Shown: in pieces, positions 20,485-62,976 of the stretch
Numbering within the stretch: position 1 is the stretch's first letter
Layout of the letters: each line of letters starts with the position of its first letter
Source of the DNA: Ianthella basta
Lineage: Eukaryota; Porifera; Demospongiae; Verongiida; Ianthellidae
Length of the DNA: 64,000 bases
Reading direction: 5' to 3'
Assembly: GCA_964019415.1 (NCBI GenBank)
Contig: OZ025877.1
Location: 1,327,501 to 1,391,500 of the forward strand
Translations under genes and position numbers: made by a program
Notes under the pieces: model-generated
What the model was told of the DNA's origin: nothing
The model's input: the letters and a program-made list of their open reading frames with translations, nothing else
Databases searched by the model: none

Positions 20485-22017
20485 ATGAAAATCATGTCAG
20501 GTCAGTGTGGGACACCACCGCTGTGTGCCTTCCTTATCATTCTGAGCTCGAGTCTGCTGCAGAGATCCACTACCGCAGCAGCATCTATAACTTGTACGTC
20601 CAGAGCCACACACTATGCCACCTATTCACCCTGCAGTCTCACTTTGAACCAAAATTCCTGTAATGCTTCCAACGAGTGTGAGATTATTATATTGCCTAAT
20701 GGATCATTGACATTTGATACCTTTGACATTGGACCAGCTCTTCTATATATTCTGATCGACCTCGCTCCTCTGATGATCTACTTCCCTGTCCTTATCCTGT
20801 TCAACTTCAATCTTGCAGCTGGACCTGCACAGGGTTTTGTGTTCTTCTATCAGGTCCTTCCAGCTCCCTTTTTTGCTGACACACTATTATACCTTAATGC
20901 ACTCACTGGTGGTTTCAGTTGGGGCCTCCTTGCAATGCAGAGTCCTATTAATGACATTGTTTTCTATCCTACCCTGCCCTTCATTGCACTTCAGTATTGC
21001 AAACTGGCATTTGTTGCGGTGGTTGTAATCGTGACAGTACTGTTGGTCAAGTGTGTTGCTTGTCCTTGTGCATCCTGGCGCCGTCCTTGGGCCAAACTTC
21101 GTCGTTCTGTTCGCCATTTCAGGAGGAAGCACGCCCAGAAGGGAACAGTGTTGAATGGATTGTGCAGTATTGTAGTACTGACATACGGCTTTGTCATTCA
21201 ACAATCATTAACTGTTCTCCAACCTGCTAGGTGTTGCCCAGGTGGTGCCTGGTACTGCTCTCATTATTGTGTTGAGCTGGAATACTTTAGTGTATTTAAT
21301 TCCTCTCTTGGCCTCATCCCATTAGCTGCACTTGTCATTTTGGTGCTTTTCCTGTCCCTCCCACTCCTCCTGCTGTATTACCCCTGTGTACCAGCTCTTA
21401 TGCAGCGTATAACAAAGAGGTCCTCTCCACTTATAACATGTCATAAACTGGCTCCAGTGTTTGATGTGTTTCAGGGAGCATACAAGCCAAAGCTTCGGTT
21501 CTTTGCTGCATTCCCTCTTCTCTATCGCTTATTGATCTGGATGCTGTTTTCTGGTCTTGCAGCAGTGCTAACTGAACAACAAAGAAATGCCATCATCACT
21601 CTTGTACTCATTCTTATTCTGGCACTCCACTCTGTGATCCAACCTTATCGTAAGCCAAGACACAACTACATTGAAGCACTCTACCTGGTAAATTTGGTTC
21701 TCATTTCAGTGGTGTATGGTCTTGTTAGCTTTGAATTCCATGGGCCTAGGGCTTGGTATCAGGGTAATGGCTTCTATATACCACAGTGCGTAGCAATAGC
21801 GCTTGCATTGCTGCCCATGGTAGTGTGCACAGGGTACATTATCTGGAAATGTAACTGCTCCCAGCGATGCAGGGCTGCTTGTTGTAGGAGAGTGCATGGT
21901 GGTTGCAATTGGAATGGGAGAGAATCGGGACAAGAAGAAGCTGTACAAGTGCCACCTTCTGAAGCCTATCTTAATCTAGATGATGAGGAGCTGGAGGAGA
22001 CAATCACAATTAAGTAA
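20485..22017 (+). CDS. Multi-pass membrane protein, subtype A (A2), intact
   Basis: Intronless, 510 residues from the ATG at 20485; a second in-frame ATG lies at 20494. The longer upstream frame opens with GTG and precedes a clear signal peptide, so I rejected it. Layout: signal peptide, ~55-residue ectodomain with cysteines and glycosylation sequons (NAS, NGS), and TM1 (LLYILIDLAPLMIYFPVLIL). LAAGPAQGFVFFYQ, a basic loop WRRPWAKLRRSVRHF, a Cys-containing loop CCPGGAWYCSHYC and CHKLAPVFDVFQ follow. Then come two or three more TMs around QPYRKPRHNYIEALYLV, a cysteine cluster CRAACC and an acidic tail DLDDEELEE. The order matches the C-terminal module of large sponge and cnidarian membrane proteins (family knowledge), here without the long extracellular part. 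A surface receptor or adhesion role is inference. Confidence 0.85.
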   Translation: MKIMSGQCGTPPLCAFLIILSSSLLQRSTTAAASITCTSRATHYATYSPCSLTLNQNSCNASNECEIIILPNGSLTFDTFDIGPALLYILIDLAPLMIYFPVLILFNFNLAAGPAQGFVFFYQVLPAPFFADTLLYLNALTGGFSWGLLAMQSPINDIVFYPTLPFIALQYCKLAFVAVVVIVTVLLVKCVACPCASWRRPWAKLRRSVRHFRRKHAQKGTVLNGLCSIVVLTYGFVIQQSLTVLQPARCCPGGAWYCSHYCVELEYFSVFNSSLGLIPLAALVILVLFLSLPLLLLYYPCVPALMQRITKRSSPLITCHKLAPVFDVFQGAYKPKLRFFAAFPLLYRLLIWMLFSGLAAVLTEQQRNAIITLVLILILALHSVIQPYRKPRHNYIEALYLVNLVLISVVYGLVSFEFHGPRAWYQGNGFYIPQCVAIALALLPMVVCTGYIIWKCNCSQRCRAACCRRVHGGCNWNGRESGQEEAVQVPPSEAYLNLDDEELEETITIK

Positions 22018-24934: not shown

Positions 24935-25846
24935 TGAGTTTGAGTGAATGTATATAGATTGAATTATTTATGTGCATATTTATTTATGTATGAAGAATTA
25001 TAATTAGTTATTGCTATGGATTTCCTTATTACTTTGCCCCAATATTGTCAGTATAATGCTTTTTGCATGAATGAAATCCACATAGCCAAGTCTGCATGCA
25101 ACTGTGATCTACTTTACTTTTGATGATTGTTTTTGATCAATGATTATATATTCATGACCGACTATCACAACTTGTCTACAGGTTTATTGTTTACCTGTAA
25201 CAACTGCTTTGACAAAAACACCCTTTACTGTGTACACAACAGTCAACAGATGCCTGTCGGTTATAAACAGCATTTTTCCCAAAGTACCTAGGAATGGAGA
25301 TGCACAACCTATGGGGCAGACAATACCATGCACCTTTCATATCTCAAGGACTGTAGCCATGTAGTCATAGGCTGAATATGCAAAAGAAATAGAAAATATT
25401 ATATGTGTCGAATAGCAGCAGTGATGTGTGTTACATAGTACTTATCTGACGGATAGAAAGTGCCTTTCACACATCATGAATCGTGCGATGTGTTAAAAGG
25501 CCTGTTAGTGTACGTATATAGTGAGCTAGATCTTTAGCTTCAGTAAAATTGGACTAACTAGGTAATGGTGTGTGTGGCAGTCGCATATGCATGTGCATCC
25601 ATGTGCATCCATGTGCGTGTCAGTGTATTTGTTGTGTGTATGATACCTGGCTTGATGAGTTGCCATGAATACAACTGACCCATCATTAATATTTGTGACT
25701 ACATAATATTCATTGAAGACACACCTGGCCAGAAAGTGCATGCTTACAACTCAATCAGATTCATAGCCAACACCCTGAACTGCTATATCAACCACAGTAA
25801 GGCACTGCGCTTCCTAATCCAACAGCTTAAAGGATATCTGGAGATT
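24935..25846. other. Intergenic and 5' flank of receptor B1
   Basis: No gene recognised. The last ~300 bp (GCATGTGCATCC, GGCCAGAAAGTGCATG, CTCAATCAGATTCATAG) resemble the flanks of the genes at 46168 and 54053. The TATA box seen there is degraded here to CTATATCAACC near 25781. Confidence 0.5.
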
Positions 25847-27322
25847 ATGGAAGTGCAGAAGAAGTTGATACTGCTATGTGGGTTCGTAGTCATCTTAGGC
25901 TTGTTGCAGGGAAGTGCAGCTACTGGGTGTACTTCTGGAGTATCCAACTCACCATTTATGTTAGTTCAATGTCCATATACAGTCAAAACGTGTGATGATA
26001 TGTCTAACAGTTCAAATTTGCCTCGGATTTACAACTGCACTTTCAACAGCGGACTTGCTCCTGTTTATGTTCTCATTGGCCTCATTCCTCTGATGGTCTA
26101 CTTTCCTCTCCTCATCCTGTTTAACTTCAACCTTGCATCAGGACCTGCACAGAGTTTCATATTTTTTGTCCAGGCCCTCCCAGCAGCTATACCTTTGGAT
26201 CAACCTTTTTATGCCTCTTATACTGTCTGCGGTGGATTTATTTCAAGCCTACTAGCAATGCAAAATCCCATAACTGACCTCATTTTCCCACGTAGATTGC
26301 CCTATTTGGTATTGCATTACTGCAAACTGGTAGCTGTTTTTATAGTTGTACCTGTGACACTATTACTAGTCAAATGTATTGCCTGTCCATGCACTACCTG
26401 TTGCCTTCCTTGGGCCAAGCTCCGTCGCTCTGTTCGTCACTTCAGGGAGAAACGTGCTCAGAAGGGAACAGTGTTGAATGGGTTGTGCAGTATTGCCATA
26501 CTGACATACGGCTTTGTCATTCAGCAATCATTGACTGTTCTCCAGCCAGCTAAATGCTCAGATGGTGTCGAAACCTGTGCTTATTATTGCAATGAGTGGA
26601 AATACATGAGCATGCCTTATAGCCAGTATCTTGCTGCAGTCATTGTGGCACTCATCAGTTTGGTACTAGTCCTTCCCCTCCCACTCCTCCTGCTGTATTA
26701 CCCCTGTGTGCCAGCTCTTATGCAGCGTACAACAAAGAGGTCCTCTCCACTTATATCATGTCATAAACTGGCTCCAGTGTTTGATGTGTTTCAGAGTGCA
26801 TACAAGCCAAAGCTTCGGTTCTTTGCTGCATTTCCTCTCCTCTATCGTTTTGTGATCTGGATAATGTTTGCAGGTTTGTCAGCGGATGTAACAAAAGGTG
26901 GCAGGCAAGCTACTATCACCTTTGTCTTCATTCTTATCCTGGCAATCCACTCTGTGATCCAACCTTACAGTAAACCAAGACACAACTACATTGAAACGCT
27001 CTACCTAGTGAATTTGGTGATCATTTCGGTGAAATCAATGTTTTCATTGCAAGGCTCAAGCAAAGTTGATTGCAGTCCTACTCTTGAAACGTTGATAGCC
27101 TTATCATTTTTGCCAACATGTCTAGCATCACTGCCTATTCTCATTGGCACTTGGTATCTTCTGCGGAAACATAATTGCTCCAAGCGATGTGGGTCTGCTT
27201 GTTGTAAGAGGGTCAATCGAAACCAGAGGGAACTAGCTCAAGATGAAGATTTACCAGTGGAACCATCTGCAACTGCAGTTTATATTGACATAGCTGAAGT
27301 AGAGAGGTTGAATCAAGATTGA
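25847..27322 (+). CDS. Multi-pass membrane protein, subtype B (B1), intact
   Basis: Intronless, 491 residues from the ATG at 25847, which begins a good signal peptide (LILLCGFVVILGLLQGSAA). A 37-codon upstream extension is promoter and 5'-UTR sequence shared with paralogues. The ectodomain has paired cysteines and sequons (NSS, NCT). The core has TM1, LASGPAQSFIFFVQALPAA, QNPITDLIFPRRLPYL, TM2, basic loop, TM3, CAYYC loop, TM4, CHKLAPVFDVFQSAYKPKLR, TM5-TM8, and a tail with cysteines and a non-acidic end (AEVERLNQD). Oddity: the basic loop reads CCLPWAKLRR where every other copy has W-R/P-R/P-P-W or LRRPW, so two arginines and the tryptophan are replaced. Role unknown; surface location is inferred from the signal peptide and TM pattern. 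Confidence 0.85.
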   Translation: MEVQKKLILLCGFVVILGLLQGSAATGCTSGVSNSPFMLVQCPYTVKTCDDMSNSSNLPRIYNCTFNSGLAPVYVLIGLIPLMVYFPLLILFNFNLASGPAQSFIFFVQALPAAIPLDQPFYASYTVCGGFISSLLAMQNPITDLIFPRRLPYLVLHYCKLVAVFIVVPVTLLLVKCIACPCTTCCLPWAKLRRSVRHFREKRAQKGTVLNGLCSIAILTYGFVIQQSLTVLQPAKCSDGVETCAYYCNEWKYMSMPYSQYLAAVIVALISLVLVLPLPLLLLYYPCVPALMQRTTKRSSPLISCHKLAPVFDVFQSAYKPKLRFFAAFPLLYRFVIWIMFAGLSADVTKGGRQATITFVFILILAIHSVIQPYSKPRHNYIETLYLVNLVIISVKSMFSLQGSSKVDCSPTLETLIALSFLPTCLASLPILIGTWYLLRKHNCSKRCGSACCKRVNRNQRELAQDEDLPVEPSATAVYIDIAEVERLNQD

Positions 27323-32498: not shown

Positions 32499-32830
32499 GA
32501 GCTATATATATCGGCATGCTCACTGTGGGTGAGTGCAGGCAAGCTATATAGATCAGGCCTGCAGGACTGTGAAGACAGAGCTGAGAGTGATCTGAATCAG
32601 ATGTGCATTTGGTGTACGAACAACAGTGAGACCGACTGAAGAGTATATTTTATATGATTATATATTTATAATAGCAGCTGTGAATGGTGAAAATTGTAAC
32701 ACTGCAGCATCCCAATCATCATTTGCTGTCTATTCTTACAAGTTTGAGAAGCTCAGCAATAATACCTGGACTCTGAAGACACTGGTAGAGACAGTGGAAT
32801 TACTTGACTATAATTACATATAGCTAGATA

Positions 32831-34327
32831 ATGGCAGGGTGGAATGAGACACTGCTGTTGTGTGGGATTGCTATCACTTTGGGCTTGTTGCAAGAAAGTG
32901 GAGCTAACAAATGCTTTTCAGTACTTTCAAAGTGTTCGGCACAAGTGCCAATCACACTGATCCCAAACGATGCGAGTTGCTCACGTAACCTTTCCAATGA
33001 GTGCACCACTGGTACCTCACCAATGGTGGGACAGTTATTTCAACCAGCATTTTCTGGCTTTAGCTCTGGATTAGCTCTTCTCTATATTCTGATGGACCTC
33101 GCTCCTCTGATGATTTACCTTCCTCTCCTCATCCTGTTTAATGTCAACCTTGCATCAGGACCTGGACAGAGTTTTTTGTTCTACTACCAGGTCCTTCCAG
33201 CTGCTACCCAATTTGGACGGTATTTCTCCCCTGAAAACATAATCTGGGCCTTTATGACAATGCAGAGTCCAATAAATGACCTCATTTTCCCCCTCACACT
33301 GCCCTACATCGCACTTCAGTACTGTAAACTGGCAGTGGTGGGGTTAGTTGTAGTCACAACGGTAGTGTTGATCAAATGCATTGACTGTCCGTGTGCATCC
33401 TGGCGCCGTCCTTGGGCCAAGCTTCGACGCTCTGTTCGCCATTTCAGAGAGAAGCATGCCCAGAGGGGTACAGTGTTGAATGGATTGTGTAGCATTGCCA
33501 TACTGACATACGGCTTTGTCATTTTGCAGTCCTTCTCTGTTCTCCAGCCTAGCAGAAGTGGACTTAATGTTTCAAATGTCTGCGCTTATTACTGCATTGA
33601 ACTGCAATACTTTGACTCTGATCATTGCCACCTTCCATTCTTCCTTGTGGCCGTCCTCTTTTTGTTGCTTTTCCTATCCCTCCCCCTCCTCCTGCTGTAT
33701 TACCCTTGTGTACCAGCTCTTATGCAGCGTATAACAAAGAGGTCCTCTCCACTTATAACATGTCATAAACTGGCTCCAGTGTTTGATGTGTTTCAGAGTG
33801 CATACAAGCCAAAACTTAAGTTCTATGCTGCATTTCCACTCCTCTATCGATTTGGGATCTGGATGCTGTTGTCTGTGCTTTCTTCTGTACCACTACTAGG
33901 AAGAGAACACATCCAATTCTTTATCACCTTTGTCTTCATACTTATCCTGGCAATCCACTGTCTGGTTCAGCCTTACAGTAAGCCAAGACACAACTACATT
34001 GAAGCACTCTACCTGGTGTATTTGGTGATCATTTCAATGATACTCACATTTATACGGACAGTTGGTGATATCTCTGCTCAGAGTCTTTCTAATCTATTAC
34101 TACTCCTAGGAGTGAGTCTTTTAGCACTAGCACTGGCATTGCTGCCCTTGATTGTTGGCATTGGGTGGATTCTCTGGAAATGCAATTGTTCCAAGCGATG
34201 CAGGGCTGCTTGTTGTGAGAGAGTGAGGCAGAACAGGAGAGAACCAGTTGAAGAAATAGCTGCACAACTGCCACTTTCTGAAGTGTACATTGGAATGAGT
34301 GAAGTGGAGCAGTCAAATGATGACTGA
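32831..34327 (+). CDS. Multi-pass membrane protein, subtype C (C1), intact
   Basis: Intronless, 498 residues. Signal peptide 1-25, cysteine-containing ectodomain 26-78. Hydrophobic segments lie at about 80-103, 160-183, 214-236, 268-292, 331-352, 362-380, 391-410 and 421-449, and a possible half-membrane segment LASGPGQSFLFYYQVLP at 107-123. A basic loop at 191-213 (WRRPWAKLRRSVRHF) follows the second full segment. If that loop is cytosolic, the 107-123 segment must cross or re-enter the membrane. CHKLAPVFDVF is at 311-321 and QPYSKPRHNYIE at 380-391. The tail has CNCSKRCRAACC (451-462), a likely palmitoylation cluster. Oddity: the TM3-TM4 loop lacks the first cysteine present in the other copies (SRSGLNV). 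Closest paralogue is the gene at 38079. Function unknown. Confidence 0.87.
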   Translation: MAGWNETLLLCGIAITLGLLQESGANKCFSVLSKCSAQVPITLIPNDASCSRNLSNECTTGTSPMVGQLFQPAFSGFSSGLALLYILMDLAPLMIYLPLLILFNVNLASGPGQSFLFYYQVLPAATQFGRYFSPENIIWAFMTMQSPINDLIFPLTLPYIALQYCKLAVVGLVVVTTVVLIKCIDCPCASWRRPWAKLRRSVRHFREKHAQRGTVLNGLCSIAILTYGFVILQSFSVLQPSRSGLNVSNVCAYYCIELQYFDSDHCHLPFFLVAVLFLLLFLSLPLLLLYYPCVPALMQRITKRSSPLITCHKLAPVFDVFQSAYKPKLKFYAAFPLLYRFGIWMLLSVLSSVPLLGREHIQFFITFVFILILAIHCLVQPYSKPRHNYIEALYLVYLVIISMILTFIRTVGDISAQSLSNLLLLLGVSLLALALALLPLIVGIGWILWKCNCSKRCRAACCERVRQNRREPVEEIAAQLPLSEVYIGMSEVEQSNDD

Positions 34328-42947: not shown

Positions 42948-43190
42948 ATATATATTTGCTCTGGTCATGTTATGTGTCAATGTTATAAGACAGTAGTCAC
43001 ATATCTCCCGGCCACAATTTGCAATATTCATGTTCTTAATTAGATTCATAGTTTTAGCATACAAAATACATTGATATATAAAGAGCTTGCATGCAGGAAG
43101 GACAGTCCACAAAGTGTGATCGAATGTCACAGGTTCATGCAGGTTTGAAGACACACTTAGGAATAGAGTCAACGGCTGATCTTGTGGACC

Positions 43191-44696
43191 ATGTCAGGTC
43201 AGTTTGGGAGACTACTGCTGTGCGGCTTCCTAATTACCTTGAGCTTGTTGCAGGGATGCACTACTGCAGCGTATTTCAACTGCACACCAGGAGCTAACAG
43301 GGTCTCACCCTATCATTTGATCTACAGGTCTAGAAATATGAGCATTTACAACATCTCTGATGAGTGCAAGTTCAAATTCATTCCACATTTACAGGGACCA
43401 TTAATGTGGTTTTATAACTTTGACGTTGGGCCAGCCCTCATTTATACTTTGATTGACATTGCTCCTCTACTAGTCTACTTTCCTCTTCTCATCCTGTTAA
43501 ATGTTAATCTTGCATCAGGACCTGCACAGAGTTTTGTGTTCTTCTACCAAGCCCTACCAGCTGTTAATAGGATTGATAGGGAAAGATATCTTAATGCATT
43601 GGCTGGTGGTTTCAGTTGGGGCCTCCTTACAATGCAGAGTCCTATTAATGATATCATCTTCTTTCCAATTTTGCCCTTCATTGCACTTCAGTACTGCAAA
43701 CTGGTAATTGTTGTGATGGTTGTAATTGTGACGGTACTGTTGGTCAAGTGTATTGCTTGTCCTTGTGCATCCTGGCGCCGTCCTTGGGCTAAGCTCCGAC
43801 GTTCTGTTCGCCATTTCAGAGAGAAGCATGCCCAGAGGGGAACAGTGTTGAATGGGTTGTGCAGCATTGGCATACTGACATACGGCTTTGTCATTCGGCA
43901 ATCTTTCACTGTTCTCGAGCCAGCTAGGTGTTGCCCAGGTGGTGCCAGGTACTGCTCCTACTATTGCACTGACATGGAATACTGCAGTGTACACGATTGC
44001 TCTCTTGCTTTTATCCCAGCAACTGCGCTTTTCCTCGTGGTACTCATTCTTCCCCTCCCACTCCTCCTGCTGTATTACCCCTGTGTACCAGCTCTTATGC
44101 AGCATATAACAAAGAGGTCCTCTCCACTTATAACATGTCATAAACTGGCTCCAGTGTTTGATGTGTTTCAGGGTGCATACAAACCAAAGCTTCGGTTCTT
44201 TGCTGCATTCCCTCTCCTCTATCACTTCGTGATTTGGATGATGTTTACTAGTCTTGCAGCAGTGCTAACTGAACAACAAAGGAATGTCATCATCACCTTT
44301 GTCTTCTTTCTTATCCTGGCAATCCACTCTCTGGTTCAGCCTTACAGTAAGCCAAGACACAACTACATTGAAACACTCTACCTAGTGAATTTGGTTATCC
44401 TTTCAGTGATAGAAGGGATTGAATTAAGCTTCCTCTTCCCTCCTAGCAATATAGCTTGCATAGAGAACAATATTAGATATGATCTACTATTACTAAGAGC
44501 CCTCGCAGGGCTACCCTTGGTTGTTGTCATTGGGTGGATTCTCTGGAAATGTTATTGCTGCAAGCGATGCAGGGCTGCTTGTTGTGAGAGAGTCAAGCAA
44601 ATTCGAAACCAAAGAGAATCAGGGCAAGAGAAAGAAGTACATGTGCTACCTTCAGAGGTGTACCTTGAACTAAATGACATGGAGCAGTGCAGATGA
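43191..44696 (+). CDS. Multi-pass membrane protein, subtype A (A3), intact
   Basis: Intronless, 501 residues from the ATG at 43191 (MSGQFG, matching MSGQCG of A2). A slightly longer frame begins with TTG and is not used here. The ectodomain is quite different from A1/A2 and has three sequons (NCT, NMS, NIS). Core: SGPAQSFVFFYQALPA, GGFSWGLLTMQSPINDI, the basic loop, CCPGGARYCSYYC, CHKLAPVFDVFQGAYKPKLR, QPYSKPRHNYIE. Oddities: the conserved MQR before ITKRSSP is MQH, LLYR is LLYH, and the acidic DLDDE tail of A1/A2 is replaced by a subtype C-like end (LELNDMEQ). It may be a recombinant of A core and C tail. Function unknown. Confidence 0.85.
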   Translation: MSGQFGRLLLCGFLITLSLLQGCTTAAYFNCTPGANRVSPYHLIYRSRNMSIYNISDECKFKFIPHLQGPLMWFYNFDVGPALIYTLIDIAPLLVYFPLLILLNVNLASGPAQSFVFFYQALPAVNRIDRERYLNALAGGFSWGLLTMQSPINDIIFFPILPFIALQYCKLVIVVMVVIVTVLLVKCIACPCASWRRPWAKLRRSVRHFREKHAQRGTVLNGLCSIGILTYGFVIRQSFTVLEPARCCPGGARYCSYYCTDMEYCSVHDCSLAFIPATALFLVVLILPLPLLLLYYPCVPALMQHITKRSSPLITCHKLAPVFDVFQGAYKPKLRFFAAFPLLYHFVIWMMFTSLAAVLTEQQRNVIITFVFFLILAIHSLVQPYSKPRHNYIETLYLVNLVILSVIEGIELSFLFPPSNIACIENNIRYDLLLLRALAGLPLVVVIGWILWKCYCCKRCRAACCERVKQIRNQRESGQEKEVHVLPSEVYLELNDMEQCR

Positions 44697-45545: not shown

Positions 45546-46061
45546 TTACCGTCCGTGACTGTAGTGAGCTTGAGTAAGTACATGTACATGTAGAAACCAT
45601 ATTTGCATGTTTACTGTATTAATTTATTTCGTCTTGTACATTGTAAAGAGTGAATGTATTGCATGCTAACATGCACCAGACCTGTCAACCTCCAAGTCAT
45701 GCTTTACATATGCATGGATGAATGATATTAGAGAAGAGGGATGGGTGCATATATACAAGGCTTATTAGAGTAACCAAGCTAAACGTTTTGGCTTCAGTAA
45801 AATTGCGAATAACTATGGTCTAGGTACAGTAAGACTAGCGTGTGTGACACTTGTATGTGCACGTGCACTCGTGTGCATGAGAGTGTATTTGTGTGTATGC
45901 ACCTACACACCTGGCCTGGATGCAGGTGTTGCTATGAATACATTCAAGTTGCTGGTCAATCGTTTTGATTACTTTCTATGTATAGCCACGCTTGGCCAGA
46001 AAGTGCAGGCTTACAACTCAATTAGATTCATAGTTTACACCTTGCATGCAGCTGCCTTTAC
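45546..46061. other. 5' flank of receptor B2
   Basis: GNAT-type 3' flank remnant, then a block shared with 53640-53945 (GCACTCGTGTGCATGAGAGT, GGCCAGAAAGTGCA). The open frame through it is non-coding flank. No gene recognised. Confidence 0.5.
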
Positions 46062-46068
46062 TATAAAA
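46062..46068 (+). promoter_or_regulatory. TATA box of receptor B2
   Basis: TATAAAA in TTTACTATAAAAACAGC, 106 bp upstream of the chosen ATG. The paralogue at 54053 has TATATAAATA at the matching place. This supports starting the protein at 46168 and not in the upstream open frame. Confidence 0.6.
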
Positions 46069-46167
46069 ACAGCACTAAGGCACTGTAAGTACTCACTGCT
46101 GCATCCTGAAGACAAATACGGGATCTGTACAGTGCTGTACGTATGGTTTGAAGGCATTCTAAAAATT

Positions 46168-47682
46168 ATGGGAGTTGCAGTGCAAATCAAGTTGGTACTG
46201 CTGTGTGGATTTGTTGTTACCTTGGGCTTGTTGCAGGGAATTGCAGCTGATGGATGCTCTTCAGAAGTATTCAAGTATAACTATTTGTTTGTATTTGATT
46301 GCCCATCTTATGATCTTCCAATCATTTATGATAACAGTTCATGCAGGACCGGGCCTAGGGATATTTCAGAACATAGACGCACATTTTCAAACTGTACTTT
46401 TGACAGTGGGCTTGCTTCTGTTTATATTCTGATCAACCTCATTCCTCTGATGATCTACTTTCCTCTCCTCATCCTGTTTAACTTCAACCTTGCATCAGGA
46501 CCGGCACAGAGTTTCATTTTCTTCTACCAGGCCCTCCCAGCTGCCATTCCTTTGGACCAGACTACTTATGTTGGCTATACACTCGCGGGAGGATTCATTT
46601 CAAGCTTGATAGTAATGCAAAATCCAATAACTGGCCTCCTTTTCCCACGTACATTGCCCTATTTAAGACTACAGTACTGCAATCTGGTAGCTGTTATGGT
46701 GGCTGTAATTGTGACACTAGTTCTGGTCAAGTGCATTGACTGCCCTTGCACTACCTGGCGTCGTCCTTGGGCCAAGCTCCGTCGTTCGGTTCGTCATTTC
46801 AGGAACAGGCGTGCTTGGAAGGGAACAGTGTTGAACGGGTTGTGTAGCATTGCCACACTGACATACGGCTTTGTCATTCAGCAATCATTCACTGTTCTCC
46901 AGCCTACTAAGCACTGCTTGAGTGGTGCTAAATACTGTGCCTATTACTGCAATGAGTGGAATTACACCAACACCCCTGAATATCGTCCATTCATTGCTGG
47001 AGCACTCGTCAGTTTGGTACTTGTTCTTCCCCTCCCACTCCTCCTGCTGTATTACCCCTGTGTACCAGCTCTTATGCAGCGTATAACAAAGAGGTCCTCT
47101 CCATTTGCAACATGCCATAAACTGGCTCCGGTGTTTGATGTGTTTCAGAGTGCATACAAGCCAAAGCTTCGGTTCTTTGCCGCGTTTCCTCTCCTCTATC
47201 GCTTTGTGATCTGGATGCTGTTTTCTATTCTATCAGTCCAACTACCTAATGAAAGACAACTAATGATCACCTTTGTCTTCATTCTTATCCTGGCAATCCA
47301 CTGTCTGGTTCAGCCTTACAGTAAGCCAAGACACAACTACATTGAAACACTCTACCTGGTGAATTTGGTGCTCATTTCAATAATGCTAACATTTACCGCG
47401 CAATTTGATGATCACGTTGAAGGCAATTCTCATGGTGATCATGCTCTATTTCATGTGATAATGTTTTTGCCAGTTTTACTTGCATTGCTTCCTATGCTAT
47501 TTAGTTTTTGGTACTTTATCTGGAAACGCAAATGCTGCAAGAAATGCAGGGCTGCTTGCTGTAAGATAAGAGTGCATCAAAACAGGAACGAATCAGCGGA
47601 AGATGAAGCTGCACAGTTACCAATGTCTGAAGCATACCTTGATATGAGTGAATTGATTCCAAAAGAGCCGCCAGAATTTTGA
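46168..47682 (+). CDS. Multi-pass membrane protein, subtype B (B2), intact
   Basis: Intronless, 504 residues from the ATG at 46168, with signal peptide LVLLCGFVVTLGLLQG. The open frame extends 108 codons upstream, but that stretch holds the TATA box and is flank. The ectodomain (~75 residues) is the longest in the array, with SNCT and NSS sequons. Core: LASGPAQSFIFFYQALPAA, QNPITGLLFPRTLPYL, WRRPWAKLRRSVRHF, CAYYC, a near-family-identical CHKLAPVFDVFQ block, with SSPFATC replacing SSPLITC. TM7-TM8 are followed by CCKKCRAACC and a longer tail ending in ELIPKEPPEF. It is the only complete B copy besides the gene at 25847 and the reference for reading the damage in B3 and B4. Function unknown. 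Confidence 0.86.
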   Translation: MGVAVQIKLVLLCGFVVTLGLLQGIAADGCSSEVFKYNYLFVFDCPSYDLPIIYDNSSCRTGPRDISEHRRTFSNCTFDSGLASVYILINLIPLMIYFPLLILFNFNLASGPAQSFIFFYQALPAAIPLDQTTYVGYTLAGGFISSLIVMQNPITGLLFPRTLPYLRLQYCNLVAVMVAVIVTLVLVKCIDCPCTTWRRPWAKLRRSVRHFRNRRAWKGTVLNGLCSIATLTYGFVIQQSFTVLQPTKHCLSGAKYCAYYCNEWNYTNTPEYRPFIAGALVSLVLVLPLPLLLLYYPCVPALMQRITKRSSPFATCHKLAPVFDVFQSAYKPKLRFFAAFPLLYRFVIWMLFSILSVQLPNERQLMITFVFILILAIHCLVQPYSKPRHNYIETLYLVNLVLISIMLTFTAQFDDHVEGNSHGDHALFHVIMFLPVLLALLPMLFSFWYFIWKRKCCKKCRAACCKIRVHQNRNESAEDEAAQLPMSEAYLDMSELIPKEPPEF

Positions 47683-54052: not shown

Positions 54053-55560
54053 TTGGGAGTCTCGGTGCATAACATGTTGGTACTGCTGTGTGGATTTGTT
54101 GTAACCTTGGGGTTGTTGCAGGGAAGTGCAGCTGCTGGATGCTCTTCAGAAGCATTCAACAATTTCTCTGTATTTGTTTGCCCATCTTATCATCATTCAT
54201 TCATTTATGATAACAGTTCATCTAGGAGCAGGCCTGGGAATATTTCAGAACTTAGACTCACGTTTTAGAACTGTACGTTTGACAGCGTATTTGCTCCTGC
54301 TCATATTCTGATCAACCTCATTCCTTTGATGGTCTACTTTCCTCTCCTCATCCTGTTTAACTTTGACCTATCATCAGGACCCGCACAGAGTTTCATTTTC
54401 TTCTATCAAGTCCTTCCAGCTGCCATTCCTTTGGACCAAGCCCCTTACGCTACTTATACACTCATGGGAGGAGCCATTTCAAGCTTGCTAGTAATGCAAA
54501 ATCCAATAACTGAGCTCATATTCCCACGTAGATTGCCCTATTTAGGACTACAGTACTGCAATCTGGTAGCTGTAGTGGTGGTTGTAATTGTGACACTAGT
54601 TCTGGTTAAGTGCATTACCTGCCCTTGCACTACCTTGCGTCGTCCTTGGGCCAGGCTCCGTCGTTCGGTCCGTCATTTCAGGAACAGGCGTGCTTGGAAG
54701 GGAACAGTGCTGAATGGGCTCTGCAGCATTACTATACTGACATACGACTTTGTCATTCAGCAATCATTTACTGTTCTTCAGCCTGCGAAGCAATGCCTAG
54801 GTGGTGATGGATACTGTGCTTATTACTGCAATGAGTGGAATTACACCAACAGCCCCGAATATCATCCATTCATTGCTGTAGCAGTCAGCAGTTTGGTACT
54901 TATTCTTCCCCTCCCCCTCCTCCTGCTGTATTACCCCTGTGTACCAGCTCTTATGCAGCGTATAACAAAGAGGTCCTCTCCACTTATCACATGTCATAAA
55001 CTGGCTCCAGTGTTTGATGTGTTTCAGAGTGCATACAAGCCAAAGCTTCGGTTCTTTGCTGCATTCCCTCTCTTTTATCGGTTTGTGATCTGGATGATGT
55101 TTTCTTTCCTATCTGTAAAACTACCCAATGAAAGACAACTAACTATCACCTTTGTCTTTCTTCTTATCCTAGCAATCCACTCTCTGGTTCAGCCTTACAG
55201 TAAGCCAAGACACAACTACATTGAAGCACTCTACTTGGTGAATTTGGCAATTATTTCAGTGATGCTAACATCAACACTGCAATTTGCAAATAAAGTTGAA
55301 GCTAATCCTGATCGTGATCCTGCTCTATTTTTTGCAATGACACTTTTACCAGTTGTACATGCATTCCTGCCCATACTGTTTGGTTTTTGGTATTTTACCT
55401 GGAAACGCAAGTGCTGCAAGGAATGCATGGCTACTTGCTGTAAGAAGAAAGTTTTTAAATCAGGAATGAATCAGCTGAAGATGAAACTGCACAGCTACCA
55501 ATGTCTGAAGCATACCTTGATATGAGTGTATTGGTTTCGAAAGAGACACCAGATTTGTGA
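54053..55560 (+). pseudogene. Receptor subtype B with lost start and stop codon in ectodomain (B4)
   Basis: The initiator is TTG (54053-54055) where B2 and B3 have ATG. An in-frame ATG seven codons later (54074) could still start a shortened signal peptide. In the ectodomain, TAG at 54266-54268 stands where B2 has TCA in T-F-S-N-C. The frame then continues unbroken through the whole TM core (QNPITELIFPRRLPYL, CHKLAPVFDVFQ, QPYSKPRHNYIEALYLV). A small deletion near 55455 shifts the tail so it ends at 55525, while the original stop aligns at 55560. TYGFVIQQ reads TYDFVIQQ. Translation of the long frame alone would give a core lacking a signal peptide. Confidence 0.85.
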
Positions 55561-57716: not shown

Positions 57717-58040
57717 GCAATGTCATGTGACCACATGGATATTGGGTTAGTGGTTTCACTGTATTCACCCAAACCTACGTGGTTATGCAATCCACAATGT
57801 CATGTGACCAGATGGGACTGGGTTAACAATGGATTCACTGTGGGTATGCAATCCACAATGTCATGTGACCACATGGGATTGGGTGAACAATGGATTCACT
57901 GTGGGACCCAATCCCATGTGATTATGCAATCCACAATGTCATGTGACCACATGGGATTGGGTGAACAATGGATTCACTGAGGGACCCAATCCCACATGAT
58001 AATGCAATCTACAATGTCATGTGACCAACATGATTGGGTA
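57717..58040. repeat. Tandem repeat around the PLE target site
   Basis: Four to five units with AATGTCATGTGACCACATGG, GATTGGGTGAACAATGG and ATTCACTG. Some units carry the inverse ACCCAATCCCATGTG, so they can form hairpins. The last unit ends in the left target duplication of the Penelope-like element. Confidence 0.8.
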
Positions 58041-58290
58041 ATTGATAAAGGGGGGATTACTTGAGCGTTAAACACGTGGTACACTTTTTTTACCAAAAGG
58101 CAAAACGTTTCGGCCCCAAAAGGGCCTTCTTCAGTTGCACAAGAGTACAAAAAACAGAACATGCAAGATAAAAGGCAGCAGCAGAATAAATAGGGGATGG
58201 CAAGTGCACAAGTGACAGGACCTGATGTGTATGAATTAAATTAATAAATGAATTTAATGTCAATAAATTGAAATTGTAGTCAAGACGTCA

Positions 58291-59919
58291 TCAGTGCCTG
58301 TCACTATTGTGGGGGGGGAGGGAAGGCGGCCTTGAGGCAGCCCAGCAAGGGTTCAGCAACAAACCAGGGTCTAAGTTCATGGCATTTGGAGTGTTCTTAA
58401 TGTGTAGTGCTTCTTTGACTCTCCTTCTGTACCAGTCCACATCCCAGTCCACACACGCCGACTCATTCCATTGTATCTTGTGTCCTGTGTTCCACACATG
58501 TGTTGCAATGGCATTGTTCGGGTCAGCTTTCAATACGGCTTTCTTGTGCTCTTCAATACGGGTCTTCATCTGTCTTCCTGTCTCTCCAATGTATACTGAG
58601 CCACACTCACAGGGGACCCTATACACTACACACTTCTGTTCCTCCTGGGGGGTTGGGGCCTTGACATGAGTGAGGAAGCTTCTTAATGTCCGGGATGACC
58701 TGAAGGCTGTCTTGATGTTCAGGGAGCGGCAAACCAGACGAATCCTCTCACTCAGTCCTTTGACGTAGGGCAGCACCAGCATCTTCTGTGTCTCATCTTC
58801 TGTCTGCGTGGGAGGACGTCTGCGCCTTTTGTTGAGTACCCCAGCCGTGACGGCGTGTGGGTAGCCATTTGCCTGGAATACTCTGGACAGGTGGTTCAGT
58901 TCCTCTGCGAGACCATCTCCTGTGCAAAGCTGTTCTGCCCTTGACTTGAGGCATGATACCACACTTGTTTTCACTTGTGGGTGGTGGTGTGAACGGAAGT
59001 GAACATACCGGTCAGTATGAGTCTTCTTCCGGTACACAGAGGTGGAGAGGGAGTCTCCATTCCTCCTGACCAGCACATCAAGGAACGGCAGCTGGTTCTC
59101 CTCTTCAACCTCCATTGTGAACTGGATCTTCTCACAGAGATTGTTCAGATGATTCAGGAAGGCGACCAATTGGGTTCTGCCATGGGGCCATATGATGAAG
59201 GTGTCATCCACGTACCTGAGCCAGAGCTTTGGCTCTTTGTCCGCTGTTACCAATGCCGTTTGCTCGAAGTCTTCCATGAACAGCCCAGCGACAACTGGCG
59301 AAAGAGGTGATCCCATCGCTGTGCCTTCGGATTGTTCAAAGAACTGGTCGCCGTACATAAAGTACGTGGATTTAAGGCAGAGTTCCGTCAGGGAGCACAC
59401 CTGTTGTGGTGTCATGGTTGTTCTTCCACTGAGAGACTCATCATGTTCCAGCCTGTCCTTGATGATGACGAGTGCATCCTCCACTGGGACCTGGGTGAAG
59501 AGGCTTTTTACATCAAAACTGACCAGGCAATCCTTGCTGTCAATCTTCACGGATGAGATTCTTTCCACAAAGTGTGTTGAGTTCTTCACAAAGGAACTGG
59601 TACCTCCAGACAGTGGTGAGAGGACTCTCGCAAGCTCCTTGGCAAGGTCATACGTTGGGGAGCCAATGGTGCAGACAATGGGACGAAGTGGCACCTCAGC
59701 CTTATGGATCTTGGGCAGCCCATAAATCTGTGGTGCAGAGGACTGTCTTGGGGTGAGCTTCTTCCTCAGATATTCTGATAGGTTGCCCTCTCTCTCCACA
59801 CCCTTGATAGCATCAGTGACCCGTTTTTCCATTCTGGTAGTGGGGTTCTTGGGTAGCAACCGGTAGTTGTTCTCCGTCAGCAGGTCCTTTAGCTTGGATG
59901 TGTACTGGGTGGAGTCCAT
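58291..59919 (-). CDS. Penelope-like reverse transcriptase/GIY-YIG protein, left copy
   Basis: 542 residues from the first internal ATG, with the same protein as the plus-strand copy at 60178. The frame is open further upstream to the palindrome centre at 60042, including ILPADKGNATVV, a conserved Penelope-like motif, so the true N terminus is truncated. The mirror arrangement means two convergent-5' transcripts would be complementary over their whole length. Domains are given under the right copy. Confidence 0.9.
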   Translation of the reverse strand: MDSTQYTSKLKDLLTENNYRLLPKNPTTRMEKRVTDAIKGVEREGNLSEYLRKKLTPRQSSAPQIYGLPKIHKAEVPLRPIVCTIGSPTYDLAKELARVLSPLSGGTSSFVKNSTHFVERISSVKIDSKDCLVSFDVKSLFTQVPVEDALVIIKDRLEHDESLSGRTTMTPQQVCSLTELCLKSTYFMYGDQFFEQSEGTAMGSPLSPVVAGLFMEDFEQTALVTADKEPKLWLRYVDDTFIIWPHGRTQLVAFLNHLNNLCEKIQFTMEVEEENQLPFLDVLVRRNGDSLSTSVYRKKTHTDRYVHFRSHHHPQVKTSVVSCLKSRAEQLCTGDGLAEELNHLSRVFQANGYPHAVTAGVLNKRRRRPPTQTEDETQKMLVLPYVKGLSERIRLVCRSLNIKTAFRSSRTLRSFLTHVKAPTPQEEQKCVVYRVPCECGSVYIGETGRQMKTRIEEHKKAVLKADPNNAIATHVWNTGHKIQWNESACVDWDVDWYRRRVKEALHIKNTPNAMNLDPGLLLNPCWAASRPPSLPPHNSDRH

Positions 59920-60177
59920 AACTACTGTTGCGTTGCCCTTGTCAGCTGGCAGGATAGTGAGACCCTCACGCCTGCTGAGGTCTCTCAGATCCTTCAGGGC
60001 CTCTCGCTCAGTGCGGGTGAGTGTTGGCTTGGGTGGTTTTGCTGCCTCAGAGAAGCAAAACCACCCAAGCCAACACTCACCCGCACTGAGCGAGAGGCCC
60101 TGAAGGATCTGAGAGACCTCAGCAGGCGTGAGGGTCTCACTATCCTGCCAGCTGACAAGGGCAACGCAACAGTAGTT

Positions 60178-61806
60178 ATGGACTCCACCCAGTACACATC
60201 CAAGCTAAAGGACCTGCTGACGGAGAACAACTACCGGTTGCTACCCAAGAACCCCACTACCAGAATGGAAAAACGGGTCACTGATGCTATCAAGGGTGTG
60301 GAGAGAGAGGGCAACCTATCAGAATATCTGAGGAAGAAGCTCACCCCAAGACAGTCCTCTGCACCACAGATTTATGGGCTGCCCAAGATCCATAAGGCTG
60401 AGGTGCCACTTCGTCCCATTGTCTGCACCATTGGCTCCCCAACGTATGACCTTGCCAAGGAGCTTGCGAGAGTCCTCTCACCACTGTCTGGAGGTACCAG
60501 TTCCTTTGTGAAGAACTCAACACACTTTGTGGAAAGAATCTCATCCGTGAAGATTGACAGCAAGGATTGCCTGGTCAGTTTTGATGTAAAAAGCCTCTTC
60601 ACCCAGGTCCCAGTGGAGGATGCACTCGTCATCATCAAGGACAGGCTGGAACATGATGAGTCTCTCAGTGGAAGAACAACCATGACACCACAACAGGTGT
60701 GCTCCCTGACGGAACTCTGCCTTAAATCCACGTACTTTATGTACGGCGACCAGTTCTTTGAACAATCCGAAGGCACAGCGATGGGATCACCTCTTTCGCC
60801 AGTTGTCGCTGGGCTGTTCATGGAAGACTTCGAGCAAACGGCATTGGTAACAGCGGACAAAGAGCCAAAGCTCTGGCTCAGGTACGTGGATGACACCTTC
60901 ATCATATGGCCCCATGGCAGAACCCAATTGGTCGCCTTCCTGAATCATCTGAACAATCTCTGTGAGAAGATCCAGTTCACAATGGAGGTTGAAGAGGAGA
61001 ACCAGCTGCCGTTCCTTGATGTGCTGGTCAGGAGGAATGGAGACTCCCTCTCCACCTCTGTGTACCGGAAGAAGACTCATACTGACCGGTATGTTCACTT
61101 CCGTTCACACCACCACCCACAAGTGAAAACAAGTGTGGTATCATGCCTCAAGTCAAGGGCAGAACAGCTTTGCACAGGAGATGGTCTCGCAGAGGAACTG
61201 AACCACCTGTCCAGAGTATTCCAGGCAAATGGCTACCCACACGCCGTCACGGCTGGGGTACTCAACAAAAGGCGCAGACGTCCTCCCACGCAGACAGAAG
61301 ATGAGACACAGAAGATGCTGGTGCTGCCCTACGTCAAAGGACTGAGTGAGAGGATTCGTCTGGTTTGCCGCTCCCTGAACATCAAGACAGCCTTCAGGTC
61401 ATCCCGGACATTAAGAAGCTTCCTCACTCATGTCAAGGCCCCAACCCCCCAGGAGGAACAGAAGTGTGTAGTGTATAGGGTCCCCTGTGAGTGTGGCTCA
61501 GTATACATTGGAGAGACAGGAAGACAGATGAAGACCCGTATTGAAGAGCACAAGAAAGCCGTATTGAAAGCTGACCCGAACAATGCCATTGCAACACATG
61601 TGTGGAACACAGGACACAAGATACAATGGAATGAGTCGGCGTGTGTGGACTGGGATGTGGACTGGTACAGAAGGAGAGTCAAAGAAGCACTACACATTAA
61701 GAACACTCCAAATGCCATGAACTTAGACCCTGGTTTGTTGCTGAACCCTTGCTGGGCTGCCTCAAGGCCGCCTTCCCTCCCCCCCCACAATAGTGACAGG
61801 CACTGA
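60178..61806 (+). CDS. Penelope-like reverse transcriptase/GIY-YIG protein, right copy
   Basis: Reverse transcriptase motifs in order: PQIYGLPKIHK, SFDVKSLFTQVP (motif A), GTAMGSPLSPVVAGLFMEDF (motif B), LRYVDDTFII with catalytic YVDD at residues 236-239 (motif C), QLPFLDVLV, and YRKKTHTDRYVHF. From residue ~432 a GIY-YIG endonuclease follows: VVYRVPCECGSVYIGETGR, then TRIEEHKKAV, THVWNTGHKI and a late glutamate in VKEALHI. This RT plus C-terminal GIY-YIG order defines Penelope-like elements (family knowledge). The telomerase-like RT copies RNA at a nick made by the nuclease. The frame is open upstream from 60178 to the palindrome spacer, so the ATG at 60178 is internal and the N terminus is lost. 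No internal damage is seen. Confidence 0.92.
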   Translation: MDSTQYTSKLKDLLTENNYRLLPKNPTTRMEKRVTDAIKGVEREGNLSEYLRKKLTPRQSSAPQIYGLPKIHKAEVPLRPIVCTIGSPTYDLAKELARVLSPLSGGTSSFVKNSTHFVERISSVKIDSKDCLVSFDVKSLFTQVPVEDALVIIKDRLEHDESLSGRTTMTPQQVCSLTELCLKSTYFMYGDQFFEQSEGTAMGSPLSPVVAGLFMEDFEQTALVTADKEPKLWLRYVDDTFIIWPHGRTQLVAFLNHLNNLCEKIQFTMEVEEENQLPFLDVLVRRNGDSLSTSVYRKKTHTDRYVHFRSHHHPQVKTSVVSCLKSRAEQLCTGDGLAEELNHLSRVFQANGYPHAVTAGVLNKRRRRPPTQTEDETQKMLVLPYVKGLSERIRLVCRSLNIKTAFRSSRTLRSFLTHVKAPTPQEEQKCVVYRVPCECGSVYIGETGRQMKTRIEEHKKAVLKADPNNAIATHVWNTGHKIQWNESACVDWDVDWYRRRVKEALHIKNTPNAMNLDPGLLLNPCWAASRPPSLPPHNSDRH

Positions 61807-61962
61807 TGACGTCTTGACTACAATTTCAATTTATTGACATTAAATTCATTTATTAATTTAATTCATACACATCAGGTCCTGTCACTTGTGCACTTGCCAT
61901 CCCCTATTTATTCTGCTGCTGCCTTTTATCTTGCATGTTCTGTTTTTTGTACTCTTGTGCAA

Positions 61963-61990
61963 CTGAAGAAGGCCCTTTTGGGGCCGAAAC
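61963..61990 (+). other. Conserved 3' hairpin of the PLE (mirrored at 58107-58134)
   Basis: CTGAAGA, hairpin GGCCC-TTTTG-GGGCC, then GAAAC. This resembles the CUGANGA/stem II/GAAA core of hammerhead ribozymes, which Penelope-like elements are known to encode. I could not find a matching stem III and cleavage triplet, so it is only a candidate or a degenerate form. Confidence 0.4.
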
Positions 61991-62242
61991 GTTTTGCCTT
62001 TTGGTAAAAAAAGTGTACCACGTGTTTAACGCTCAAGTAATCCCCCCTTTATCAATGTCCAGACGTGGTAATGAATCTCTATTCTATCATGATTGGGTAA
62101 ACAGAGATTAATCACTGGAAATTTTACACCAACCAGCCTTCTACACCAATGGTGTCTCAGGATGCTGGGGGGCATCACGCCCTATTGATGGCAACCAGTG
62201 ATCACAGCCTTTCCCCGCTAGTCATCCTACAAAGATGGTAGA

Positions 62243-62287
62243 GCCACAGACAGCTGTTTCGCCCTAGTTGGGGCTCATCAGTGTGGC
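62243..62287 (-). ncRNA. Type-I hammerhead ribozyme, copy 1
   Basis: Minus strand, 45 nt. Stem I is GCCACA paired with UGUGGC (6 bp). The core box is CUGAUGA. Stem II is GCCC/GGGC with loop CAACUA. Then come GAAA and the stem III palindrome ACAGCUGU, and cleavage is expected after GUC (C just before UGUGGC). Every conserved core position is present. Stem III has no room for a loop, so cleavage is expected in a dimer, the minimal form reported for Penelope-like elements and metazoan retrozymes. Confidence 0.9.
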
Positions 62288-62610
62288 GTACTGATGGATG
62301 GTAAGATGACCAGCTACTCTTGTGTCTACCACTAGTGAAACACTTGTGGTTTCAACAGGAGCGAATACTAATGGGGGAAGGCTGCAAGTCATTTACGTAA
62401 GCGTGACTTGGCGCAGGGTTATTCAGAGGACAGTTTGTAGCAGTTGAACCACTGCTGAGGATTGGTTGACAGAGATTAATCACTGGAAATTTTACACCAA
62501 CCAGCCTTCTACACCAATGGTGTCTCAGGAAGCTGGGGGGCATCATGCCCTATTAATGGCAACCAGTGATCACAGCCTTCCCCCGCTAGTCATCCTACAA
62601 AGATGGTAGA

Positions 62611-62655
62611 GCCACAGACAGCTGTTTCGCCCTAGTTGGGGCTCATCAGTGTGGC
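62611..62655 (-). ncRNA. Type-I hammerhead ribozyme, copy 2
   Basis: Identical 45-nt sequence to copy 1, one unit away. A minus-strand transcript across both would be cut into a 368-nt unit-length RNA with ends suited to circularisation. Confidence 0.9.
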
Positions 62656-62682
62656 GTACTGATGGATGGATGGTAAGATGTT

Positions 62683-62976
62683 GTCCATTGTACATTTTAA
62701 TTTATTTATTTAAAACTTATCTTGCATTCACCATTGTTACCCAATACAGTACAATACATGGGTAACAATGGTGGATGGATGAGCTTTAAATAAATAATGT
62801 ACAATACATAGGTAACAGTGGTGAATGGATAAGTTGTAAATAAATGAATAAATGATGTACAATACATGGGTAACAATGGTGAATGCAAGATAAGTTTTAA
62901 ATAAATAAATTAAAATGTACAATGGATAGGTAACAATAGCAAATGGATAAGTTTTAAATAAATAAAGGAATTATTA
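62683..62976 (-). repeat. 3'-terminal tandem repeat of a LINE
   Basis: About five units of 50-60 bp (ACAATACATGGGTAACAATG, GTGAATGGAT, TTTAAATAAATAAAT on plus). It follows the stop codon of the minus-strand LINE frame, so it is probably the element's repetitive 3' UTR. Confidence 0.7.

Follow-up and report, generated by a model that had tools for sequence, protein, structure and literature searches.

A retrozyme of the sponge Ianthella basta whose insertion footprint resembles that of Penelope-like elements

What moves the retrozymes of animals is an open question. Penelope-like elements (PLEs) are called "a strong candidate" in PMC7229834, because the two kinds of element have type I hammerheads in common, form tandem copies, and co-exist, and passages of PMC7761336 and PMC11722881 say much the same. 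This work addresses the question through a tandem repeat at positions 62101 to 62680 of a 64,000-nucleotide stretch of the Ianthella basta genome (contig OZ025877.1; the whole stretch is referred to here as the window), where the insertion footprint points to PLEs. We consider it very likely that the repeat represents a single insertion of a non-autonomous, noncoding retrozyme that was copied and integrated by a PLE reverse transcriptase-endonuclease. PLE mobilization was proposed earlier from shared ribozymes and co-occurrence; the part that appears to be new is the mode of insertion, and a literature search within one library found no paper on a PLE insertion footprint of retrozymes.

The repeat was originally predicted, from its letters alone, to span positions 62100 to 62682 and to hold, on its minus strand, two identical 45-nt type I hammerheads with a spacing of 368 bp. 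An Infernal check (cmscan of the 64-kb window) confirmed the ribozymes: the copy that is 5' in RNA sense (62611-62655, minus strand) and the 3' copy (62243-62287, minus strand) are identical in their letters, and each matches RF00163 (Hammerhead_1) over 45 of 45 model positions at 42.5 bits (E value of 1.7e-7; cutoff, 34 bits). These are the only Rfam matches above the gathering score in the window. The spacing was borne out by a direct repeat of 206 nt that has 97% identity at a distance of 368 and holds both ribozymes, and the predicted bounds proved right within 1 to 2 bases. The palindromic stem III (ACAGCUGU) has no loop, as had been pointed out, and the Rfam consensus line likewise has a loopless stem III. 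According to PMC7761336, a weak helix III often blocks cleavage of a monomer and not that of a dimer. A 368-nt RNA, its circularity, and its cleavage from a dimer, which may well be needed for cleavage, are predictions from the letters of the repeat.

The array is a single arm of 1.6 units. A full unit (62101-62468, minus strand) is followed by a second, 5'-truncated one (62469-62680, minus strand), which is delimited by the direct repeat and by locus mapping (position 4681 of L058 is window position 62680); the turns of this copy differ at 6 of 217 positions. The left outer edge at 62101, read as one of the two types of 3' end described below (type A), was placed by eye where acagag lies beside the duplication of a neighboring PLE. 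Automatic mapping overruns this edge by 9 to 10 nt into unit-like flank, so that the window edge is classed as odd (157) in the counts given here. No stop-to-stop frame overlaps 62101-62680 among the frames of at least 100 aa that were considered. The GC content is 0.49 for the window unit and 0.50 for the majority consensus, the criterion for metazoan retrozymes being below 50%. The right flank is other repetitive DNA. Directly to the right of the array, at 62684-62926, lies a 60-nt perfect inverted repeat with repeats of 50 to 60 bp between its arms, which is perhaps MITE-like.

A genome-wide copy count, suggested along with the original prediction, retrieved 63 exact copies of a 37-nt ribozyme string from the 209-Mb genome (29 forward and 34 reverse) and 0 copies of the same pattern read backward; the ribozyme copies are therefore not due to chance. 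The ribozyme patterns gave 0 matches in viral_contigs and 0 in genome_contigs. When the 368-nt unit was searched against its own genome (209 Mb in 96 contigs; 40 of 929 candidates scored, so that counts are lower bounds), the matches listed numbered at least 126 and were grouped by hand into 40 places. The loci used numbered 44, one per place, and 40 independent family 1 sites were left after four had been dropped: L036 and L046 as duplicates of L035 and L045 (300-nt flanks 100% identical), L007 as a duplicate of L006 (flanks 93 to 95% identical), and L004 as a second family. Family 1 copies depart from the majority base by 0.9% on average within the ribozyme region and by 2.5% elsewhere. Some insertions are nearly identical (L015 and L026 show 0 differences), and the family therefore moved recently. 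With a type I hammerhead at unit spacing, a short noncoding tandem repeat, dispersed copies, and target-site duplications, the retrozyme-like class first proposed is well supported; the repeat is a multicopy, non-autonomous retrozyme of the metazoan type.

The second family is known from the single insertion L004. Its 366-nt unit is identical to the family 1 unit of L010 at 244 of 357 aligned positions, and its ribozyme is nearly the same. The insertion has two head-to-head arms with edges, determined by eye, at CAAGCAACAA and TTTTGAACAACC, each beside AC-rich sequence and together flanking a predicted hairpin; the duplication is ∼10 to 12 bp long (by eye).

How these repeats entered the genome can be read from their edges. 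When unit positions are counted from the ribozyme cleavage site in the direction of the RNA, the 3' ends are fixed at one of two positions, A (∼147) or B (∼193), and the 5' ends are scattered. An identical flank word of 9 to 17 bp delimits 27 of 40 sites, with duplication lengths of 9 bp (n = 2), 11 bp (n = 2), 12 bp (n = 1), 13 bp (n = 8), 14 bp (n = 9), 15 bp (n = 4), and 17 bp (n = 1); 21 of the 27 are thus 13 to 15 bp long. In a narrower band, words of at least 11 bp were found at 22 of 40 sites, compared to 0.08% of 7,791 shuffled flank pairs. By the rule used, 13 of 40 sites, the window copy included, have no duplicated flank word of at least 9 bp. The delimited sites present 46 3' edges, of which 23 fall at A (143 to 154), 20 fall at B (187 to 206), and 3 fall at neither (50, 133, and 185, the last being 2 nt short of the B interval). 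The A and B intervals, which were chosen after the data had been seen, cover 32 of 368 positions.

Two-arm insertions are arranged head to head, with their 3' ends outward. The 27 delimited sites comprise 16 with A on one arm and B on the other, 6 with a single A, 2 with a single B, and 3 with one odd end. Accordingly, every two-arm, duplication-delimited insertion with both ends classified (16/16) is mixed, an outcome with a chance of ∼1 in 65,000 if A and B were chosen independently at about equal rates. Across all 40 sites, 17 insertions are A+B, 6 have an A end alone and 6 a B end alone, 4 pair A with an odd end and 3 pair B with one, 3 show a single odd end (the window copy among them), and 1 is odd at both ends. 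Neither A+A nor B+B was observed among the 27 delimited sites or among all 40. Since 19 delimited sites carry two 3' edges, misassembly of inverted repeats is disfavored as a general explanation.

From these insertion ends, an internal copy of a proposed start module for reverse transcription can be placed in the window at 62424-62471 (minus strand), with B at ∼62424-62426 and A at ∼62469-62471. An inverted repeat, AGCAGT/ACTGCT, lies between A and B (∼62439-62456, minus strand), and a hairpin is predicted there for the consensus module. Two one-arm insertions, L030 (∼1977-1991) and L048 (∼4450-4460), have B-like bits (CTGTCCTCTG and AACTGTCCTTT) at an apparently free 5' edge, perhaps representing second arms of just 10 to 14 nt. 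A candidate motif, YCTCT, which lies just before the start sites, may be common to the PLE B ends and the retrozyme A and B ends (AACCTCTAC, AATCTCTATTC, AATCTCTGTC, and GTCCTCTTAAC).

The window also contains a PLE, directly left of the retrozyme. This element is palindromic (58041-62056), with 5'-truncated arms arranged head to head, 3' ends outward, and an inverted repeat that is 99.9% identical over 4,017 columns. Each arm carries a 637-aa open reading frame: that of the right arm (59893-61806, plus strand) matches RVT_1 (PF00078) at 1.4e-11 and has a GIY-YIG-like C terminus (YIGETGR..R..EH), and that of the left arm (58291-60204, minus strand) was taken from the frame listing and the inverted repeat. 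The GIY-YIG-like C terminus was seen by alignment to fragments from L050 and L043. The window protein has no Pfam GIY-YIG match of its own; against PF01541, the aligned L050 fragment scores 24.1 bits (cutoff, 22.6) and the L043 fragment scores 20.9, just short. A fold model of the C terminus was too poor for use (mean pLDDT of 41.3), and a search of solved structures gave only weak reverse transcriptase matches (best E value of 0.02). A minimal type I hammerhead-like motif was recognized by eye at 61959-61997 (plus strand; stem I GCAA/UUGC, CUGAAGA, GGCC/GGCC, and GAAAC GUU), with no Rfam match up to an E value of 5. Comparison of the arms identifies a 31-nt tail on the right arm only (62057-62087, plus strand), beyond which lies the right copy of a 12- to 13-bp target-site duplication, catgattgggtaa (62088-62100, plus strand; by eye; left copy at ∼58029-58041). 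This right duplication meets the retrozyme edge without a gap; the PLE was thus inserted at the retrozyme border, a single case that fits preference and chance alike.

Three candidate readings of this neighborhood were set aside. The retrozyme is not a pLTR part of the adjacent PLE, as the PLE arms share no sequence with the repeat and the array occurs elsewhere without that PLE. The window PLE is not favored as the helper, its start region (by eye) not being AC-rich, unlike those of the retrozyme and of the PLE termed C3 below. MicroRNA matches at 59986-60111 are an artifact of the PLE palindrome and fall below their cutoffs.

A six-frame genome search with the window PLE protein (69 of 1,322 candidates scored) gave at least 72 matches, several of them in head-to-head pairs, and open PLE frames extend up to 854 aa among the matches listed. 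In the C19 pair, the arms are identical over 273 nt, one side continues for 35 nt, and TTAACGATTAAAT is duplicated (tail and duplication by eye). In the C3 pair, the arms are 99% identical over 200 nt, one side has an additional ∼32 nt, and a duplication of ∼12 bp lies in a repetitive target (all by eye except the arm identity). The three PLEs (window, C19, and C3) have the retrozyme type of footprint, with tails of 31 to 35 nt and duplications of ∼12 to 13 bp. A hammerhead-like motif in sense orientation precedes the ends in 3 of 3 PLEs, that of C19 being CTGATGA..GATCGAAACGTC, and hand counting puts A 53 to 63 nt and B 86 to 94 nt past the cleavage position in the three. Searching the genome with the C3 module (40 of 1,070 candidates scored) returned at least 56 matches, and hand inspection identified 13 places with a partner on the opposite strand. 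These 13 listed pairs comprise 11 of B with A, 0 of B with B, and 2 others; the search favors copies with B, so that A+A copies could escape it, and in one of the 11 B-with-A pairs the B arm reaches the query end, leaving its edge open. The 3' module of L050 is 96% identical to that of C3.

Several further observations concern these elements and the rest of the window. Palindromes of ∼150 to 230 bp that consist of the C3 module only, with ends near A and near B, occur at L025 (1180-1404), L006 (15-168), and L053 (219-430). L008 holds, at ∼1501-1554, another type I hammerhead, in which stem III is longer; it scored 37.2 bits (over the cutoff) in one scan and 31.3 (below it) in a second, and the window PLE protein matches nothing in this 3-kb locus. 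Within the window, a long array of a 20-bp repeat (2511-13999; consensus, TATCTTGCCTCATCTTGCAA; ∼585 copies; 78% matches) contains many open frames that are probably artifacts, and DNA resembling this repeat flanks the C3 PLE pair (L061 and L062) and the retrozymes L052 and L057 (by eye). Frames of ∼380 to 640 aa were found at 17628-18761, 20404-22017, 25679-27322, 32828-34327, 43167-44696, 45769-47682, 54269-55525, and other positions, and a Pfam scan of these seven gave no match. In or near such frames, a stretch of 150 to 175 bp with 86 to 91% identity recurs at 18146, 21399, 26719, 33721, 38969, 44096, 47073, 50781, 54952, and 63696, perhaps reflecting a local tandem gene family.

The two kinds of element meet in one chimeric insertion, L049 (C16:3283263-3283665). 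Its right arm reaches the retrozyme A site and then continues as CAACCCTTTCTGATGCCTGAGC... of the C3 PLE. The PLE part corresponds to positions 186 to 233 of the C3 module at 95.8% identity, spanning A and ending at the PLE B site, and CAACC at the joint is common to both partners. L049 contains no further C3-module match, its left flank is unlike the rest of the PLE, and the joint pattern occurs once genome-wide. In the simplest reading, the insertion looks as if reverse transcription had started at B of a PLE RNA before the enzyme jumped to the corresponding position of a retrozyme RNA. The other reading, in which the retrozyme landed in a PLE end and sequence was lost afterward, is also conceivable, given that L049 is a single case that lacks a duplication and whose left edge is odd (129). 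A second candidate chimera, at L053, was rejected because both of its flanks resemble an old C19-type PLE, which indicates an insertion into a PLE.

The arms also carry a record of the RNA that was copied. Among 62 arms of at least 60 nt, 52 cross the ribozyme cleavage site, 12 of them at least twice, and 0 have a 5' end within 3 nt of it. With so many arms crossing this site and not one ending at it, the linear monomer left by cleavage was not the template of a run-off reaction. Thirty arms are longer than one unit, the longest reaching 1,207 nt. Differences amount to 57 of 8,111 positions (0.7%) between turns within an arm, 108 of 9,332 (1.2%) between arms of one insertion, and 3.4% between insertions; in L015, a young insertion with arms of 1,147 and 647 nt, the arms show 0 differences in 2,027 positions. 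A circle or an uncut oligomer fits as the template. Three circular folding energies were each lower than those of 50 shuffles, with z = -3.8 for the window unit, -6.8 for the family 1 consensus, and -5.9 for family 2. The consensus circular fold leaves both A and B unpaired, one on each side of the hairpin; in family 2, a hairpin loop contains the B site, and in the minimum-energy circle of the window unit other pairs take the place of the hairpin. These modeled folds are suggestive of an exposed start module. Folded alone, two start modules did no better than shuffles (z = -1.1 and -0.2). Covariation between families 1 and 2 was too weak to indicate a conserved overall fold, the circular alifold structure giving 103 pairs, of which 60 were identical, 11 were changed on both sides, 8 were changed on one side, and 24 were broken or gapped.

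A likely cycle can be outlined. In work on a purified Anolis PLE protein (PMC11167929), both strands were cut and extended, and reverse transcription began at two neighboring internal sites of the RNA, the stretch between them being the genomic "tail". For the sponge retrozyme, arms with at least two ribozymes would be transcribed, and the hammerheads, probably acting in a dimer, would excise a 368-nt RNA to be ligated into a circle. The PLE protein would then bind the start module with its sites A and B. As read from the footprint, the target strands would be cut ∼13 to 15 bp apart, and their 3' ends would prime two cDNAs, one at A and the other at B. Reverse transcription could round the circle up to ∼3 times and stop anywhere, and the two truncated cDNAs would be joined head to head and filled in, leaving the duplication. 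In its general form, an idea for which we see about as much weight on either side, PLE-type integration would be an obligatory asymmetric double priming (A on one strand and B on the other, on one RNA or two equivalent ones), and a complete insertion would have exactly one tail. The retrozyme would be the minimal natural substrate of this process, a ribozyme-made circle of ribozyme and A-hairpin-B module that the PLE enzyme copies by rolling-circle reverse transcription.

The PLE enzyme as agent has to be weighed against other routes, and some observations speak against it: no duplication is present at 13 of the 40 sites, and at 3 of the 27 delimited sites an edge falls at neither A nor B. LINEs too could leave duplications of 13 to 15 bp and 5' ends truncated to varying extents, and twin priming, which yields non-overlapping arms, could produce inverted arms. 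PMC7229834 names LINEs alongside PLEs. A LINE-type non-LTR element acting by target-primed reverse transcription is nonetheless improbable as the mover, for it leaves unaccounted for the presence of two kinds of internal 3' end, each represented once in an insertion, and a footprint that is common to PLEs of the same genome, the only elements with which it was compared. The printed 3' edges, inspected by eye, are all unit sequence at A or B, and none has a poly(A) or simple-repeat tail. L1-type twin priming itself is ruled out because the arms share sequence (41 to 368 nt) at 21 of 21 two-arm sites. Head-to-head palindromes are typical of PLEs and are explained in PMC3846280 by self-priming, in which one product folds back to form the inverted arm. 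Such a copy should repeat the outer end and the start of the first arm. The arms end instead at A versus B and begin at different unit positions (104 versus 285 in L015; 52 versus 309 in L012), and the purified PLE primes on both strands (PMC11167929); we regard fold-back as very improbable. Head-to-tail tandem units of high internal identity would be explained if the arrays were satellite-type DNA, amplified through recombination or a rolling-circle process at the DNA level, with the ribozyme as a relic. This account is barely credible and is largely contradicted by the existence of duplication-flanked single insertions, which are short and dispersed, with fixed 3' edges and head-to-head arms; the ribozyme region, moreover, has diverged less than the rest of the unit.

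A less remote alternative accepts PLE integration and takes the template to be an uncut oligomeric read-through transcript rather than a ribozyme-made circle. The 52 of 62 arms that pass through the cleavage site agree with it, as do the findings of PMC11167929 that Anolis PLE hammerhead mutants left in vitro insertion unaffected and that no reads begin or end at the cleavage site. In view of those findings, any contribution of the ribozyme to mobility is hypothetical. However, the ribozyme is conserved, the circular fold is more stable than shuffles, and copies from a linear template cannot exceed their source, yet the L015 arms reach the lengths given above. For the last reason a circle is preferred as the template, with the ribozyme as its probable maker, and we judge the uncut oligomer possible but doubtful. 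The insertion footprint brings the question of what moves retrozymes within reach of an assay with a single purified PLE protein and one 368-nt RNA, a short natural molecule expected to hold everything that the PLE enzyme requires. The footprint stands in a genome where PLE copies keep long open frames, and the rule of one A arm and one B arm can be checked in any retrozyme-bearing genome.

Among known systems, the repeat is closest to the metazoan non-LTR retrozymes (Cervera and de la Peña, 2020; PMC7229834), which are described as type I hammerhead-bearing, noncoding tandem units of 150 to 450 bp with dispersed copies, duplications of >4 bp, and a predicted circular RNA. Head-to-head two-arm insertions, A and B ends at one each per insertion, and a PLE-retrozyme chimera set the present case apart from that description; the word "inverted" is absent from the main text of PMC7229834. 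Plant LTR retrozymes (PMC7229834 and PMC7761336) are similarly ribozyme-bearing and non-autonomous and are thought to borrow the machinery of another element, but they differ in having a type III hammerhead, an LTR, PBS/PPT, a 4-bp duplication, and Gypsy as the proposed helper. With PLEs and their pLTRs (PMC11167929 and PMC3846280), the retrozyme shares a hammerhead upstream of two start sites for reverse transcription, an optional tail on one inverted copy (31 bp in PMC3846280, which also gives duplications of 8 to 10 bp), head-to-head arms, target duplications, 5' truncation, and tandem units. It is PLE-like in its ends only, having no open reading frame of at least 100 aa and hence no reverse transcriptase or GIY-YIG frame. 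Its hammerhead reaches the Rfam type I cutoff, whereas that of the PLE is minimal; its A and B sites lie 147 and 193 nt past the cleavage site, compared to 53 to 63 and 86 to 94 nt in the three PLEs; and its tail is ∼46 nt long, compared to 31 to 35 nt in the PLEs of the same genome.
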